A DNA stretch of 64,000 nt from Luteibacter jiangsuensis (GTDB lineage Bacteria; Pseudomonadota; Gammaproteobacteria; Xanthomonadales; Rhodanobacteraceae). Within the stretch, counting starts at the first letter, position 1. Each line of letters starts with the position of its first letter. Made by a program: the position numbers and the translations under genes. Shown piece after piece: positions 40,618 to 47,622 of the stretch. The notes under the pieces were generated by a model, which did no database searches, was not told where the DNA came from, and saw nothing but the letters and a program-made list of their open reading frames with translations. The DNA lies in NCBI RefSeq assembly GCF_030812295.1, contig NZ_JAUSSK010000003.1, positions 248,001-312,000 on the forward strand, in the 5' to 3' direction.

Positions 40618-43600
40618 ATGAAACGACCATCCGCATCACCCGGCAGTACGCAAAGGCGAGCGAGGCTATGCGCCTTGCTCGCCTTCGCGTTCGTCGGCGT
40701 TACCGCGACGGCCCAGGCCGTCACGCTCGCGCCGTCGGATCGCCAGGACATCAACCTCGGCGCACGGCCCTGGAAGTACACCAAGCAGGCCGTCGTCAAT
40801 CCGAACGATCCGGTGGTGTACGCACCGGTGCCCAATGGCGACGACGGTGCCAATCCGGCCTTCAACGACAGCGGCTGGCTGACCGTCGGTATCCCGCACG
40901 CCGCCAACGACTTCACCACCTTCATCAACCAGGAGTCCGGTGGCGGCCAGGGCAGCCTCGATGGCGAGACCAGCTGGTATCGCGTCAAGCTGACCGACTC
41001 GGCGAAGTTCGCCGGTAAAAAGGTGATGGTCGAGTTCGAGGGGGCGCACACGGGCGACCGTGTCTACCTCAACGGGCAGTTCATCCACGGCACCGGTGTG
41101 CTCAACCAGGCGGGCCAGCCGGACGAGAACGCCACCCACGTCATCGGCTTCCTGCCGCATATCGTGGATCTGACGCCGCTCATGAAGTTCGACGGCACCG
41201 ACGTGCTGGCGGTCAAGGTCAGCCGAAGCGGCGGCGGCTTCTTCGAGGACCCGGGATTCTCCGGCTCGTTCCGTTTCGGCCAGGCCGAAGCCGGCCTGTT
41301 CCGTCCGGTAAAACTGCACGTGACCAACTTCGTGCACATTCCGGAAAACGTGTACGCGGGACAGAACACATGGGGCACGTACGTCGGCACGCAAAGCATC
41401 GCCGCAGACCACAGCACCGCCACCGTCCGCGTACAGACCAACGTCGTGAACGAGACGAAGGACCCGAAGTCGGTCATCCTGACCACGCAGATCGTCGACG
41501 CCCAGGGTAACCTCGTCGCGACGGACCAGCAGCAGAAGACGCTCGCTCCGAATTTCGTACCGAATGACCAGACGCCGGTCTTCGACGAGACGCTGACGGT
41601 TCCGCATCCGACGCTCTGGTATCCGAACAACAGCCTGGACGGCAAGCCGTACCTCTACAAGGTATTGCACACGGTCAGTATCGACGGTGTCGTGGTGGAT
41701 GCGAAGCAGAGCACGCTCGGTATCCGCACCATCACGTGGGACAAGGATTTCCCCTACGTCAACGGCAAGAAGCAGTACATGTGGGGTGGCTCGGGCCGCT
41801 ACGATTACCCGGCGCTCGGTTCCTCGGTGCCCGAGGAACAGCAATGGCGCGATCTGCAGCAGCTTGCCGCCGGTGGTGGCAATCTCTGGCGTCCGGGCCA
41901 CTCGCCCTCCAGCCCCGAATTCGTCGAGGCGGCCGATGCGCTGGGCGTGTTCATCGTGCAGCCCAGCGGCGACGGCGAGAACGGTTTCGCCAATCCCTGT
42001 GCCGCCGGCGACAAGGCCTGCAACGACATGTGGACGATCAAGCGGGAGGTCCATCGCGACATCGTGATCCGCGATCGCAGTCACCCGTCGATCCTGGCCT
42101 GGGAACACGACAATGGCGCGATGTTCACGCCGTTCGCGGTGGAACTGCGTGCTCTCGCGCGTTCGTGGGACACCATCGCCCCTCGCGCCGCCGCCGACCG
42201 CACGCCCGATGCCGCCAATGGCGACATCCTCAGCTGTTCGAAGGCAGGATGTGAGACCTACCTGCACTCCACCGAATTCCCGAACAAGCCCGCATGGGGC
42301 GCGGAATACTGGGGGCCGGGTACGCTGCGCCACTCGTACGACCACGAGCTGGCCTTCGCCTTGAACTACCTTGTGCCGTACTCGCAGGCGCGCAAGGTCG
42401 GCACGTTCGGCATGGCGCAGTGGTACATGTCCGATACCCCGGGCGAAGTCATCGAGATGGTGGAAGGCCTCGAGGACGATACCCATTGGGTATACCAGCG
42501 CGACGCGAACGGCAACATCATGAACCACCCGGACGGAAACCCCATCAAGGCGTTCCGTCACAACGTCCGCGGCAACAACGCGTCGATGACCGATGCGAAC
42601 CGTTTCCCGCGCATGCTGTACTACATCTACGAATCGGTCTGGGTTCCTTACGAACTCCGTCCGGTCGTCAAGCTGGCGCACCACTGGAATCGCGCAGGCG
42701 ATATCCAGGTCAACGCGTTCAGTAACTGCCCGAAGGTTCGCCTGTTGATCAACGGCGTGCCACAGGGCCTCGACCAGACGCCGAATACCTGGGATACGAT
42801 CGACGATGCGTCCTATAACGCCGAGAACGGCGCGACGGACGAACTGACGGGCAAGATCGTCGGTTCCGACAAGGCGCAGATGACCACGAAGTTGCCGGGC
42901 CAGGTCCACTGGAACGTCACGTGGCAGCAAGGCAACGCGACGGCACAGTGCATCGACGCGCTGGGTAACGTGCGGACCGACGACAGCGGCAACCCGGTGG
43001 CCGATACGGTGACGACCGCGGGCAAGGCCGACCATATCGAACTCGATGTCGTGCCGGCGGTGGTGAGGCCGGACGGCACCCGTTTCCAGGTGACCGCGAA
43101 CGGTTCGGACGCCGCCTTCATCGTCGCCAAGGTGGTCGATGCCAACGGCGTCGTCGTGCCGGACGCGTCGCAGAAGGTGACCTTCGACGTGGCATCGGGT
43201 GCCGACATCGTCACCTACCAGGGTGGCACGCAGCAATATGTCGACTACGGCGCCGGTCTTCAGCCGGGCGAGCAGCCGGCCAACCCGGGCGTTTATGTTC
43301 CGGAGCCGTTGCACAGCTACCATTCCCCGGGCTCGCATGAACTGCAGTTCGAAGGCGGCCTGCAGAAGATCGCGTTGCGCTCGAAGTTCGCGGCCGGCCA
43401 GGTCACGGTGACCGCCTCGGCACCGGGTCTCCTGACGGGCTCCGCGACGTTCAACATCGTCGACGTGCCTGCCGCGCCGACCGTCTCCGGTCCGCCCGCC
43501 ATCATCGCGCAGCCGATCGGCCAGCAGATCACCGTCGGTGACGTCGGCCGCTTCTCCGTGACGGCCTCGGGCGCTCCGCCGCTGACCTTCACCTGGAAGA

Positions 43601-46600
43601 AGAATGGCGTGGAGATCCCGGGTGCGACGGGTGCGAGCTATACCACCCCCGCAACGACGCTGGCGGACGACGGTTCCACGTATTCGGTCGTCGTCCATGG
43701 CCAGGGGCCGGACCAGGAATCGGCACCGGCCACGTTGAAGGTATTCCCCTTCAGCCAGGTCGTGATTTCGGCCCAGCCGCAGCCGCAAAACGTGGACGAG
43801 GGCCAGAGCGCCCACTTCCAGGTCACGGCATCGGGATCGCCGACGCTGACCTACCAGTGGATGAAGAACAACGTCGTCATTCCTGGGGCCACGAACCCCG
43901 GCTACGACACGCCGACACTGGGCGTGGCCGACAACAACGTCGGTTACTCCGTGGTTGTCAGCAACTTCGGCAGCTCCGCGCCGTCGATCACCGCACCGCT
44001 CACCGTGAATGCGGCGCGCCCGCCGGTGATCACCGGAACGATGGCCGACGTTCGCGCGAATCCCGGGCAGCCGGCCATCTTCGATGCATCCACGCTGGTG
44101 GCCGGCACCTCGCCGTTCCACTACAAGTGGTCGCACGACGGTACGCCGGTCGGCGACGACCTGCCGACGCTGACGATTCCGTCGGTGCAGCCGGGCGACG
44201 TTGGCACGTATACCGTTTCCGTCACCAACATCACCGGCGCGTCGGCGACCGTATCCGCCAAGCTCACCCTTGCTCCGCCGGGTGCGAACCTGGCACGTGA
44301 AAAGGCGACGCTCGCGTCGGAAGTGGAAAATCCGCAGGGTACCGCGGCGTGGCAGGCCGTCGACGGCGACGAGACCACCCGCTGGGGTTCGAAGATCGGT
44401 GACGACAAGGCGTTCATCACGGTCGATCTCGGTGCTTCGCGCACGTTCAACCGTGTGGTGCTCAAGTGGGAGAACGCGCACGCCACATCGTACGAGATCC
44501 AGTACTCGGATGATCCGGACACCGGTTTCGACACCCATGTCGCGTACCACACCGACACGAGCATCGGCGGCACCGAGGATGTCACCTTCGACAAGCCCGT
44601 CACGGGACGCTATGTCCGCATGCAGGGCCTCGTCCGTGCGACTGACTACGGCTACTCGTTGTACGAGTTCGAGGTGTACAACTCGCCCACCTGCTGCAAC
44701 CTGACCGACCGTTACACGACGACGGCCGGTTCCAACCTCGTGACCGACACCCTGAGTGGCCTGCAGTGGGACCGCATCCAGCGCGGCTTCCCCGACCAGG
44801 GTGCGCAGTTCACGCAGTCCGTGGCGATCTCGACCTGTACAGCGGCCAGCATGCGCCTGCCGACGGTCGCCGAAGCGCTGGCCATCAGCGGCCAGAACTA
44901 CTCGACGGCGGCGTTCCCCGGTGCCTGGACCACCTGGACGGAAGGCAAGGATCCGAACGATTCGACGTTCGCCTTCCAGGTGAACTCGACCGGCGATGTC
45001 CATCGCGAAGTGGCGGAGAACAATCCGGGCCACGTGCTGTGCGTGAAGGGAGCCAAGGCGGTCGCTCCGGTGATCACCGGCCAGCCGGCCGACCAGAAAG
45101 CGGGCGTCGGCCGCTCGGCGCATTTCGCGGTGACCGCGTCGGGCGTGGGTCCGTTGACATACGACTGGTACACCGTGACCAAGGACGCCAACGACCAGGA
45201 TGTCCTGTCCCTGCTCTCGAGCACGGCTGATGGTACGTACGCGACGCGAGCCCTCACGGCGGCGCAGAACGGCAGCGTCCTGCGTGTGAACGTGGTCAGC
45301 GCCCAGGGGATCACGACGGCAAGCGACGATGTGACGCTTACCGTCGACAACTCCACCGACGGCTTCAACCCGCCTGCGTGGGCTGGTCCGGCCCCGCAGC
45401 AACCCCAGCAACCGGGTGATGGTGGTGGCAGCAACCCGCCAAGCCCGGGTACGCCGGGTGACGGCAAGGGTGGCGTGAACATCGCCCTCGGCGCCACCGC
45501 TTCGTCGCACGTCGATCCCGAGCGCGGCGACCTGGATGCGTCCAAGGCGGTCGATGGCGACTTCACGACCCGCTGGAGCTCGGCACCGGGCGTCGACCCG
45601 ACCGACCTGGTACTGAACTTCGGCACCCCGAAGACCTTCGACCACGTGATCCTGCGCTGGGAGAACGCCTATTCGAGCTCGTACACGCTCGACACGTCCA
45701 ATGACGGCCAGACCTGGACCCCCGTGTTCAAGGACCCGATCGTCGGCAAGGGTGGCGTGGATACGCAGACGTTCGCGGCGGTGACCGCCCAATACGTGCG
45801 CATCAACAGCACGGCGCGCGCCACCGGGTACGGCAACTCGCTGTTCGAGTTCGAGGTCTACCAAGCCGCCGCCACGTCGCAGCCGCAACAACCGGTGAGC
45901 GACCAGCCGCAGCAGACCCAGCCGCAACAGCCCGACGTGGGCGTTCCCGCCACGGGCAATCTCGCCCTGAAGAAAACGGTGCTCGCGTCCGACAGCGAGA
46001 ACGCGGTCGCCTTCAAGCCCGAGAACGTCAATGACGGCGATGCCGGGACACGTTGGTCTTCGGGTTTCACCGACGACCAATGGATCCAGGTCGACCTCGG
46101 TTCGGTGCAGGTGATCGGCAAGGTGGTGCTGTCGTGGGAGAACGCGCATGCGCTCGCCTACCGCATCGACACCTCGATCGATGGCAAGACCTGGACGCCG
46201 GCGTACGACAACGAGAACAGCCAGGGTGGCGTGGAAACCGTTGCCTTCCCGGCCAGATCGGCCCAGTACGTGCGCATGACGGGCCTCAAGCGTTCGAGCC
46301 CCTATGGGTACTCGCTGTGGGAAATGGGCGTCTATGCCGCCGATGGCGGTGGCGACACCGGCACCCCGCCGGAAAACCCGCAGGCCAACGATCCGTCGCA
46401 GGGCTTCAACTACGAGACGTACCCGGGCTTCATCGGCACGCAGCTGCGCAACACGACCAACGGCAAGTACCGCGACGACCAGATCTACGTCGCCGTTATC
46501 GGCCGCGATCCGACATCGCAGGTGTTCTCGTGGGTCAAGCCGGACGGCACGCTGACCGCCGCCGCGGTGGAAGACAACGATGGCCCCGGGCATCTGACCA

Positions 46601-47559
46601 AGAACGGCCAGAACTACCCGAACTACTTCTTCACCCTTGCGCAGGCGAAGTTGCTCAAGCTGCCGAAGATGGATTCGGGCCGGATCTTCGTGTCGGTCGG
46701 CGAGCCGATGTACATCAAGATCCTCAAGGCGGCCGATGGATCGATCGGTTTCGCCGGTCCGAACCCGCTCAACGGCACCGATCCGAACATCGGCGTGTAC
46801 TACGACTGGTATGAGTTCACCTGGAACGACAACGCCATCTTCATCAACACGACGCAGGTCGACCAGTTCTCGATCCCGTTGTCGCTCGATGTGTATGGCG
46901 GGGACAAGACGAGGCACGAGTCGTCGGGCATCACCCAGACGCGCGCGCAGATCTTCGCCCAGTACAACCAGGAGGTCCCCGCTGAGTTCCAGTTGACCGA
47001 TGCCGACCCGATCCGCATCCTCGCACCGGGCAAGGCGGCGTTCGATGCCGGGCAGCCGCAGGGGCATTACTTCGACGACTACATCGACCAGTCGTGGACG
47101 TACTACCAGAACCATGTGCTGCAGATGACGATCGGCAACAAGCAGTTCGAAGGTACCGTGATCGACGGCGTGTTGACCTTCACCCACACCAATTGGGCCG
47201 ACACGCACGAACAGGACGAGCCGGAAGGCATGCTGTTCAAGGTGGCCAAGCCCAACACGCAGGACGTACTCGAAGGCAAGGGCGCGCTGGCCCGGTCGAA
47301 CGATCCCTGGGGTGTGGAAGGCCAGCTCGAAGCGCAGATCTGCGCCGCGTTCAACCGTCACGTGATGGAAGACACGACGCTGTGGAAGGATTCCGGCTCG
47401 TTCTACCAGCAGTCACCGGCGAATTACTATTCGCGCTTCTGGCACCTGCACGGCGTGAATGGCAAGGCCTACGGTTTCGCCTACGACGATGTTTCCGACC
47501 AGAGCTCGACGCTGATCGAGACCCAGCCGGAGCATCTCGAACTCGGGATCGGCTTCTAA
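40618..47559 (+). CDS. Giant secreted GH2-like / F5-8C / GH64 beta-1,3-glucanase
   Basis: This 2313-residue protein has a signal peptide (1-34, ending TAQA). Residues about 40-800 are GH2-like: sugar-binding beta domain, immunoglobulin-like domain and barrel with GNLWRPGHSPSS, WEHDNG (about 495-500) and WGAEYWGPG (about 560-568). Three Ig-like domains (about 955-1222), a discoidin/F5-8C domain (1223-1358), an Lcl_C/DUF1566-like domain with paired Cys (1359-1480), a fourth Ig-like domain (1482-1578), Q/P-rich linkers, and two more discoidin domains (1620-1753 and 1779-1912) follow. The C-terminal 385 residues (FINTTQVDQFSIPL, FFDDYID-like YFDDYID, GKAYGFAYDDVSDQSS) match GH64 beta-1,3-glucanases. 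The likely substrate is fungal or algal glucan, which is inference. Confidence 0.88.
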   Translation: MKRPSASPGSTQRRARLCALLAFAFVGVTATAQAVTLAPSDRQDINLGARPWKYTKQAVVNPNDPVVYAPVPNGDDGANPAFNDSGWLTVGIPHAANDFTTFINQESGGGQGSLDGETSWYRVKLTDSAKFAGKKVMVEFEGAHTGDRVYLNGQFIHGTGVLNQAGQPDENATHVIGFLPHIVDLTPLMKFDGTDVLAVKVSRSGGGFFEDPGFSGSFRFGQAEAGLFRPVKLHVTNFVHIPENVYAGQNTWGTYVGTQSIAADHSTATVRVQTNVVNETKDPKSVILTTQIVDAQGNLVATDQQQKTLAPNFVPNDQTPVFDETLTVPHPTLWYPNNSLDGKPYLYKVLHTVSIDGVVVDAKQSTLGIRTITWDKDFPYVNGKKQYMWGGSGRYDYPALGSSVPEEQQWRDLQQLAAGGGNLWRPGHSPSSPEFVEAADALGVFIVQPSGDGENGFANPCAAGDKACNDMWTIKREVHRDIVIRDRSHPSILAWEHDNGAMFTPFAVELRALARSWDTIAPRAAADRTPDAANGDILSCSKAGCETYLHSTEFPNKPAWGAEYWGPGTLRHSYDHELAFALNYLVPYSQARKVGTFGMAQWYMSDTPGEVIEMVEGLEDDTHWVYQRDANGNIMNHPDGNPIKAFRHNVRGNNASMTDANRFPRMLYYIYESVWVPYELRPVVKLAHHWNRAGDIQVNAFSNCPKVRLLINGVPQGLDQTPNTWDTIDDASYNAENGATDELTGKIVGSDKAQMTTKLPGQVHWNVTWQQGNATAQCIDALGNVRTDDSGNPVADTVTTAGKADHIELDVVPAVVRPDGTRFQVTANGSDAAFIVAKVVDANGVVVPDASQKVTFDVASGADIVTYQGGTQQYVDYGAGLQPGEQPANPGVYVPEPLHSYHSPGSHELQFEGGLQKIALRSKFAAGQVTVTASAPGLLTGSATFNIVDVPAAPTVSGPPAIIAQPIGQQITVGDVGRFSVTASGAPPLTFTWKKNGVEIPGATGASYTTPATTLADDGSTYSVVVHGQGPDQESAPATLKVFPFSQVVISAQPQPQNVDEGQSAHFQVTASGSPTLTYQWMKNNVVIPGATNPGYDTPTLGVADNNVGYSVVVSNFGSSAPSITAPLTVNAARPPVITGTMADVRANPGQPAIFDASTLVAGTSPFHYKWSHDGTPVGDDLPTLTIPSVQPGDVGTYTVSVTNITGASATVSAKLTLAPPGANLAREKATLASEVENPQGTAAWQAVDGDETTRWGSKIGDDKAFITVDLGASRTFNRVVLKWENAHATSYEIQYSDDPDTGFDTHVAYHTDTSIGGTEDVTFDKPVTGRYVRMQGLVRATDYGYSLYEFEVYNSPTCCNLTDRYTTTAGSNLVTDTLSGLQWDRIQRGFPDQGAQFTQSVAISTCTAASMRLPTVAEALAISGQNYSTAAFPGAWTTWTEGKDPNDSTFAFQVNSTGDVHREVAENNPGHVLCVKGAKAVAPVITGQPADQKAGVGRSAHFAVTASGVGPLTYDWYTVTKDANDQDVLSLLSSTADGTYATRALTAAQNGSVLRVNVVSAQGITTASDDVTLTVDNSTDGFNPPAWAGPAPQQPQQPGDGGGSNPPSPGTPGDGKGGVNIALGATASSHVDPERGDLDASKAVDGDFTTRWSSAPGVDPTDLVLNFGTPKTFDHVILRWENAYSSSYTLDTSNDGQTWTPVFKDPIVGKGGVDTQTFAAVTAQYVRINSTARATGYGNSLFEFEVYQAAATSQPQQPVSDQPQQTQPQQPDVGVPATGNLALKKTVLASDSENAVAFKPENVNDGDAGTRWSSGFTDDQWIQVDLGSVQVIGKVVLSWENAHALAYRIDTSIDGKTWTPAYDNENSQGGVETVAFPARSAQYVRMTGLKRSSPYGYSLWEMGVYAADGGGDTGTPPENPQANDPSQGFNYETYPGFIGTQLRNTTNGKYRDDQIYVAVIGRDPTSQVFSWVKPDGTLTAAAVEDNDGPGHLTKNGQNYPNYFFTLAQAKLLKLPKMDSGRIFVSVGEPMYIKILKAADGSIGFAGPNPLNGTDPNIGVYYDWYEFTWNDNAIFINTTQVDQFSIPLSLDVYGGDKTRHESSGITQTRAQIFAQYNQEVPAEFQLTDADPIRILAPGKAAFDAGQPQGHYFDDYIDQSWTYYQNHVLQMTIGNKQFEGTVIDGVLTFTHTNWADTHEQDEPEGMLFKVAKPNTQDVLEGKGALARSNDPWGVEGQLEAQICAAFNRHVMEDTTLWKDSGSFYQQSPANYYSRFWHLHGVNGKAYGFAYDDVSDQSSTLIETQPEHLELGIGF

Positions 47560-47592
47560 GCGATAGCCGGTAAAACCGGTAGTAAAAGAAAA

Positions 47593-47622
47593 GGGCGGTG
47601 GATTTCTCCACCGCCCTTTTTA
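47593..47622 (+). terminator. Rho-independent terminator
   Basis: A 10-bp GC-rich stem (GGGCGGTGGA / TCCACCGCCC) with loop TTTC is followed by a run of five T. It ends transcription of the giant glycosidase gene, 33 bases after its stop. Confidence 0.92.

Follow-up and report, generated by a model that had tools for sequence, protein, structure and literature searches.

The window analysed here, a 64,000-nucleotide stretch of a Luteibacter jiangsuensis contig, carries on its plus strand an open reading frame without internal stop (40618..47559) that codes for a protein of 2313 amino acids and recurs as one frame in 18 of the 23 Luteibacter genomes compared. The predicted protein begins with a signal-peptide-like N-terminus, recognized by eye from a basic start, a hydrophobic run and an ATAQA-like end (40618..40722). 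It is followed by a GH2-fold module (residues 45-885; 40750..43272) with sandwich, Ig-like and TIM-barrel regions and a DUF4982- and C5-like tail. In Pfam searches with the whole protein, Glyco_hydro_2 (residues 258-370, 2.3e-12) and Glyco_hydro_2_C (380-518, 4.3e-8) passed their cut-offs, whereas Glyco_hydro_2_N (117-234, 0.0013) did not; Glyco_hydro2_C5 matched residues 823-872 (3.3e-11). Three Ig-like domains (residues ~957-1222; 43486..44283), a first CBM32-like F5/8C domain (~1224-1354; 44287..44679), an Lcl_C-like region (~1374-1476; 44737..45046), a weak fourth Ig-like domain (matched over ~1484-1539; 45067..45234), a second CBM32-like F5/8C domain (1621-1748; 45478..45861) and a third F5/8C domain (~1790-1914; 45985..46359) precede a GH64 module that reaches the C-terminus (1936-2313; 46423..47556), all encoded on the plus strand. 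The whole-protein search returned three stretches of F5_F8_type_C (2e-67), four of Ig_3 (2.9e-27) and Glyco_hydro_64 at 1941-2309 (5e-81), while Ig-like domains 1-3 and the two later F5/8C domains were placed by Pfam on slices of the protein. This domain order, length and set of coordinates had been proposed in a first-pass annotation and are correct according to Pfam, NCBIfam and solved structures, with two elements below threshold: the Lcl_C/DUF1566 profile reached 21.9 bits with the whole protein (2.2e-4) and 27.5 bits with a slice against a cut-off of 34.9, and the slice with the fourth Ig-like domain 19.9 bits against a cut-off of 30. A terminator-like hairpin of 14 pairs (47589..47620), reported on the minus strand and similar on the plus strand by eye, lies between the fusion gene and the converging yjgA; a scan for sigma-70-like promoters found none where 1.1 were expected. 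The antisense frame of 2231 codons (40666-47361, minus strand) was rejected as a gene, since it is a mirror of the sense frame in DNA of high GC content and probably a by-product of GC-rich codon use.

A pattern scan of contigs yielded 11 loci. Eight named Luteibacter loci encode the whole protein (69-82% identity in the best segment), in all eight between tldD and yjgA/pmbA, and a ninth locus, L012, has a short copy with one F5/8C domain and GH64. Of the 23 Luteibacter genomes, 18 contain GH64, each with at least one GH64 in a frame of 2146-2445 amino acids, and in comparisons with ten Luteibacter orthologues every module, wherever present, has a dN/dS below 1; thus, the fusion reflects neither chance nor an assembly artefact. 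GH64 is absent from the other five genomes and is therefore dispensable. In these five, the gap between tldD and yjgA measures 49-267 bases (from tblastn ends) and represents an empty site. None of thirteen neighbouring genes was found near the loci of g17, g21, Granulicella and Paraburkholderia or near the paralogue. The shared Luteibacter site, the empty sites and the different surroundings elsewhere thus indicate a single gene gained or lost at one place in Luteibacter. Short Luteibacter copies with GH64 and no GH2-like part occur at L012, L114 and L084 (frames of 667, 660 and 429 amino acids), and L. anthropi (G186) carries a second full fusion (L099) that is located away from tldD and shares 66% identity in the GH2-like module.

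The fusion extends beyond this genus. Among 197 genomes of the Rhodanobacteraceae, 30 encode GH2-like and GH64 modules in one long open frame (16 Luteibacter, 13 of the genus g17 and one of the genus g21), and across 299 genomes of the order the identity of the GH2-like module falls from 57-58% (g17) to at most 35%. Plasmid records added five matches in Paraburkholderia and one in Granulicella, with 48-53% identity over at least 95% of the module. The Granulicella protein has GH64 and the one scanned Paraburkholderia protein lacks it; a GH64 search of the plasmid records matched 12 records, none of them a Paraburkholderia plasmid. The Granulicella protein (WP_157478238.1, G. tundricola pACIX902) combines the GH2-like module, Ig-like and F5/8C domains, a weak Lcl_C match and GH64 in one chain and has the motifs WEEDNG and QVDEF, but it is plasmid-borne and stems from another phylum, and its identity to the Luteibacter protein is 51% over the GH2-like module and 38% over GH64. 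With 18 of 23 Luteibacter genomes, 13 g17 genomes, one g21 genome and Granulicella (Acidobacteriota) encoding it, a fusion unique to one genome can be rejected. According to the first-pass annotation, no described enzyme joins the two families. Literature searches, judged by title, indeed retrieved no work on a GH2-GH64 fusion, but the architecture is already present in public genomes, and the Granulicella fusion is annotated in public records as 'beta-1,3-glucanase family protein'.

The GH64 end is well supported. Glyco_hydro_64 scored 273.2 bits against a cut-off of 27 and was covered from profile position 5 to 368 of 370, and the solved GH64 chain 5h4e matches at 5.5e-88. The whole domain aligns with the beta-1,3-glucanases 5h4e, 9vp9, PbGH64 (5h9x) and LPHase (3gd0) and shares their presumed catalytic Glu and Asp. 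In LPHase the catalytic pair is Glu154 and Asp170, and the L. jiangsuensis protein keeps both residues as E2066 (WYEF; codon 46813..46815), the presumed catalytic acid, and D2082 (TQVDQF; codon 46861..46863), the presumed base. In the alignments of solved chains, the catalytic Glu is Ala in 5h9y as compared to 5h9x. Members of GH64 are inverting endo-enzymes that attack beta-1,3-glucan of any source. The Luteibacter domain differs from the solved GH64s in being the last domain of a 2313-residue chain, and its g17 counterpart differs from them in having Asn in place of Asp. Among 39 GH64 loci compared, 26 (some of them from the same genome) retain both acids and read QVD, and 13 read QVN, all from g17; the GH64 of other family members reads RVDQF in eight cases and MVDMF in a ninth. 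The exchange was found in 13 of 13 g17 genomes (L097, L100, L101, L103 and L115-L123), where the frame of 2773-2831 amino acids is still open. The g17 GH64 is predicted to be impaired, though Asn might be tolerated. The one g17 protein that was scanned contains two Malectin matches and fn3 domains in the middle of the chain.

In a phylogenetic tree of GH64, the fusions cluster with the three short Luteibacter copies in a single group (96/95), which is separate from the GH64 of nine other family members. Within this group, Granulicella branches beside g17 (100/99) and g21 beside Luteibacter (94/92); the basal place of the short copy L084 within its half is weakly supported (89/71). The tree of the GH2-like module, calculated with a quick method that warned of long branches in the outgroup, shares this backbone, with Granulicella next to g17 (100), g21 next to Luteibacter (95) and Paraburkholderia outside. 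Like the domains, the residues, their conservation and their distribution, this shared backbone is a matter of observation. The simplest reading is one fusion event, after which the whole protein would have moved in one piece, in either direction, between Acidobacteriota and Rhodanobacteraceae.

The first-pass assignment of the two ends to GH2 and GH64 thus holds at the level of fold, and 38 distinct solved sequences match the GH2-fold module at 1e-10 or better. None of the curated NCBIfam equivalogs for GH2 enzymes was reached, however, the best being GalA at 216.4 bits where 900 are required. The catalytic roles of the GH2 residues are established, and the pocket was examined in an alignment of 32 rows picked by identity, namely 16 close relatives (at least 54%) and 16 ordinary GH2 sequences (at most 29%). 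The position of the acid/base is Gly in 16 of 16 close rows (G500; codon 42115..42117) as opposed to Glu in 16 of 16 ordinary rows, and the nucleophile Glu (E563; codon 42304..42306) is present in all 32. W495 and N499 are likewise invariant in every row, with no gap between them except in L076, which has one extra residue. Since these columns fix the register of the alignment, a misalignment can be rejected as the cause of the apparent acid/base loss. The GH2 frame of L076 reads WECSLNES and combines an extra Glu behind the Trp with the usual Asn-Glu, with a one-residue insertion between them. With Gly in place of the acid/base Glu, the chemistry of an ordinary GH2 exo-glycosidase is not expected, and the earlier suggestion that the protein trims side sugars finds no support here.

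All 36 distinct sequences of the close clade read WE..NG and also contain [AS]EYW and PSG[DE]GE; this clade was defined by the motif itself, so that the independent evidence is the identity-chosen alignment. The motif pattern used for ordinary GH2s matched 23 sequences, was escaped by L070 (Asn-Glu in the alignment) and leaves out L131. For L096 (Paraburkholderia sp. PGU19), whose GH2-like match is split into two pieces in different frames, the longer frame alone was used. A sample of the class (369 genomes, E 1e-60) contained no clade member beyond the L. jiangsuensis genome, and a sample of the phylum (398 genomes, E 1e-30) gave eight loci in six other genomes, all with Asn-Glu, and no further clade member, but as samples with a loose first look these sets do not permit the rarity of the clade to be read from them. 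In the comparisons with the ten Luteibacter orthologues, dN/dS ranged from 0.046 to 0.150 for the barrel and from 0.082 to 0.332 for GH64; the barrel had the lower value in 10 of 10 comparisons and the lowest of all compared modules in eight of 10. In amino acid identity the barrel is not more conserved than GH64 (92 versus 93% for L007, 82 versus 88% for L102). The strong constraint and the 36 distinct sequences that look alike rule out a decaying relic. Judged by these residues and ratios, the GH2-fold module is maintained for a role that differs from textbook GH2 catalysis.

What this role may be depends on the remainder of the pocket. E454 (in PSGDGE; codon 41977..41979) and E496 (directly after the Trp; codon 42103..42105) do not vary in any of the 16 clade rows and are also Glu in L132 from Persicobacter, a marine member of the Bacteroidota, whereas the E454 column contains Glu in none and the E496 column in one of the 16 ordinary rows. 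Arg394 is fixed in the clade and replaced by His in 16 of 16 ordinary rows and by Lys in Persicobacter. Thus, the module shares the fold regions, the nucleophile Glu, the Asn preceding the acid/base, His428 and Arg425 with GH2 beta-galactosidases (4ypj, 7cwd and others), but differs from them by Gly for the acid/base Glu, Arg394 for His and the additional E454 and E496. Its best solved match is 6hpd, 'Beta-galactosidase (GH2)' (2.1e-74, profile), presumably from Formosa, for which a literature search found no paper describing the chain. This chain reads PGVSGE and WEGGNW. The Persicobacter protein, a GH2-like frame of 996 amino acids without the acid/base Glu, has the same WEGGNW and a preceding GE. 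Neither has Glu after the Asn, both have Trp where the Luteibacter clade has Gly, and L132 is not fused to GH64.

Being clade-fixed and shared with Persicobacter, E454 or E496 could replace the lost acid/base, and the module would then be an enzyme. Alternatively, the acid/base may not be needed at all, as in plant myrosinase (GH1), where the leaving group or a cofactor makes it superfluous. In either case an active glycosidase might trim side sugars of wall glycans after all. The invariant nucleophile, the two additional Glu residues, the corresponding motifs in 6hpd and the strongly constrained barrel are in line with such an activity. However, the lost Glu is the defining acid/base of GH2, E454 and E496 are located elsewhere in the sequence, and the constraint would be equally compatible with binding. 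An active, rewired module is therefore considered rather unlikely. A search for literature on GH2 pseudoenzymes, judged by title, led nowhere.

The F5/8C domains offer hints at the target. Among solved chains, domains 1 and 2 are closest to the CBM32 modules DD1/DD2 (4zy9 at 1.7e-30 and 2rv9 at 2.2e-31, respectively) of the chitosanase/glucanase from Paenibacillus sp. IK-5, whereas the nearest solved chain to domain 3 in the whole-protein search is 7d29, the CBM32 of the alginate lyase AlyQ (3.7e-11). DD1 and DD2 are described as chitosan binders in passages of PMC5651945. We favour a reading in which domains 1 and 2, owing to their resemblance to chitosan-binding CBM32, are putative wall binders. 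Of the proposed binding and degradation of fungal beta-1,3-glucan, the direction toward the fungal wall is thus favoured on sequence grounds, and the degradation would be left to GH64. A related layout is known from pneumococcal BgaA, a large secreted protein that likewise unites a GH2 region with Ig-like and CBM-like modules. Unlike the Luteibacter protein, which lacks the acid/base and carries GH64, BgaA has beta-galactosidase activity, the acid/base Glu564 and an LPXTG anchor; its adhesion does not depend on this activity (PMC4161441).

By analogy, the whole protein might serve primarily as an adhesin or a scaffold on glycans of fungi or of other sources, with hydrolysis as a secondary function that was lost in one genus. 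The Asn of all 13 g17 genomes in a frame that has stayed open, the two Malectin matches and the activity-independent adhesion of BgaA would suit this idea, but the GH64 Glu and Asp are kept in Luteibacter, g21 and Granulicella, the Pfam layout contains no surface anchor, and GH64 ends at the C-terminus. It appears doubtful that adhesion is the main function.

The Luteibacter protein is probably secreted. In Paraburkholderia L094, gspG and genes for a GspF and a GspE are annotated just downstream of the GH2-like protein, and tblastn recovered the same GspG-GspF-GspE order in L093 and L096, that is, in three of three fetched loci, which represent three of the five Paraburkholderia plasmid matches. 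At these loci (L094, 8893-17962; L093; L096) the GH64-less protein is encoded directly upstream of gspG, gspF and gspE on the same strand, and the gsp genes are perhaps a dedicated secretion set. The L. jiangsuensis genome has one T2SSG match. A type II route for the Luteibacter protein would follow by analogy from this gene neighbourhood in another family. As for ecology, soil or deadwood habitats with fungi appear in parts of PMC8247643, and Luteibacter is counted among necromass decomposers in a section of PMC11497827; GH64 goes unmentioned in the main text of PMC4850484. The match between this ecology and a fungal target amounts to a coincidental agreement of names and tests nothing.

Other targets, such as beta-1,3-glucan from algae or plants (laminarin, callose) or a bacterial exopolysaccharide, would agree with the broad substrate range of GH64, the marine Bacteroidota that provide the relatives with a similar GH2-like pocket and the AlyQ-like third F5/8C domain, but are very improbable in view of the DD1/DD2-like domains 1 and 2 and the fungus-bearing habitats mentioned above.

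Taken together, it appears somewhat probable that the protein is an exported beta-1,3-glucanase directed at fungal walls, in which a GH2-fold module serves glycan recognition and is not an ordinary exo-glycosidase. It would be exported by type II secretion and anchored on a chitosan- or wall-like glycan by the DD1/DD2-type pair of F5/8C domains, with the Ig-like domains as spacers between the parts, and the C-terminal GH64 would cut beta-1,3-glucan in the inverting endo mode of its family. The GH2-fold module, which keeps the nucleophile, the adjacent Asn and other pocket residues and has lost the acid/base Glu, would most likely be a glycan-recognition pseudoenzyme, or else have a rewired site. 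The common element of these proteins may be the GH2 module with Ig-like and F5/8C domains, which in Luteibacter, g17, g21 and Granulicella would carry GH64 as cargo and in Paraburkholderia would lack it.

More tentatively, and with less than even confidence, the clade may represent a new branch of GH2 with a rebuilt pocket, either a new class of retaining glycosidases or a conserved glycan-reading pseudoenzyme that crosses phyla together with GH64. This idea draws on the retained nucleophile and the acid/base Glu missing from all members seen, on Arg394 in place of His, on E454 and E496 in common with the 6hpd type, and on a GH64 that would have turned into a pseudoenzyme in g17.

The fusion is real, conserved and already in databases under a plain name, and the GH2 part of it is no ordinary member of that enzyme family. 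The label GH2 on such proteins thus gives no licence for the term 'exo-glycosidase', and the residues do not support a trimming of side chains. The Asp to Asn exchange makes the g17 protein, with its identical architecture, a natural control. Should the rebuilt pocket prove catalytic, GH2 contains an unrecognised mechanism. Otherwise, the module would be an enzyme fold of the TIM-barrel type put to lectin-like use, under strong conservation and linked to a glucanase, in bacteria that have been described as fungus feeders.
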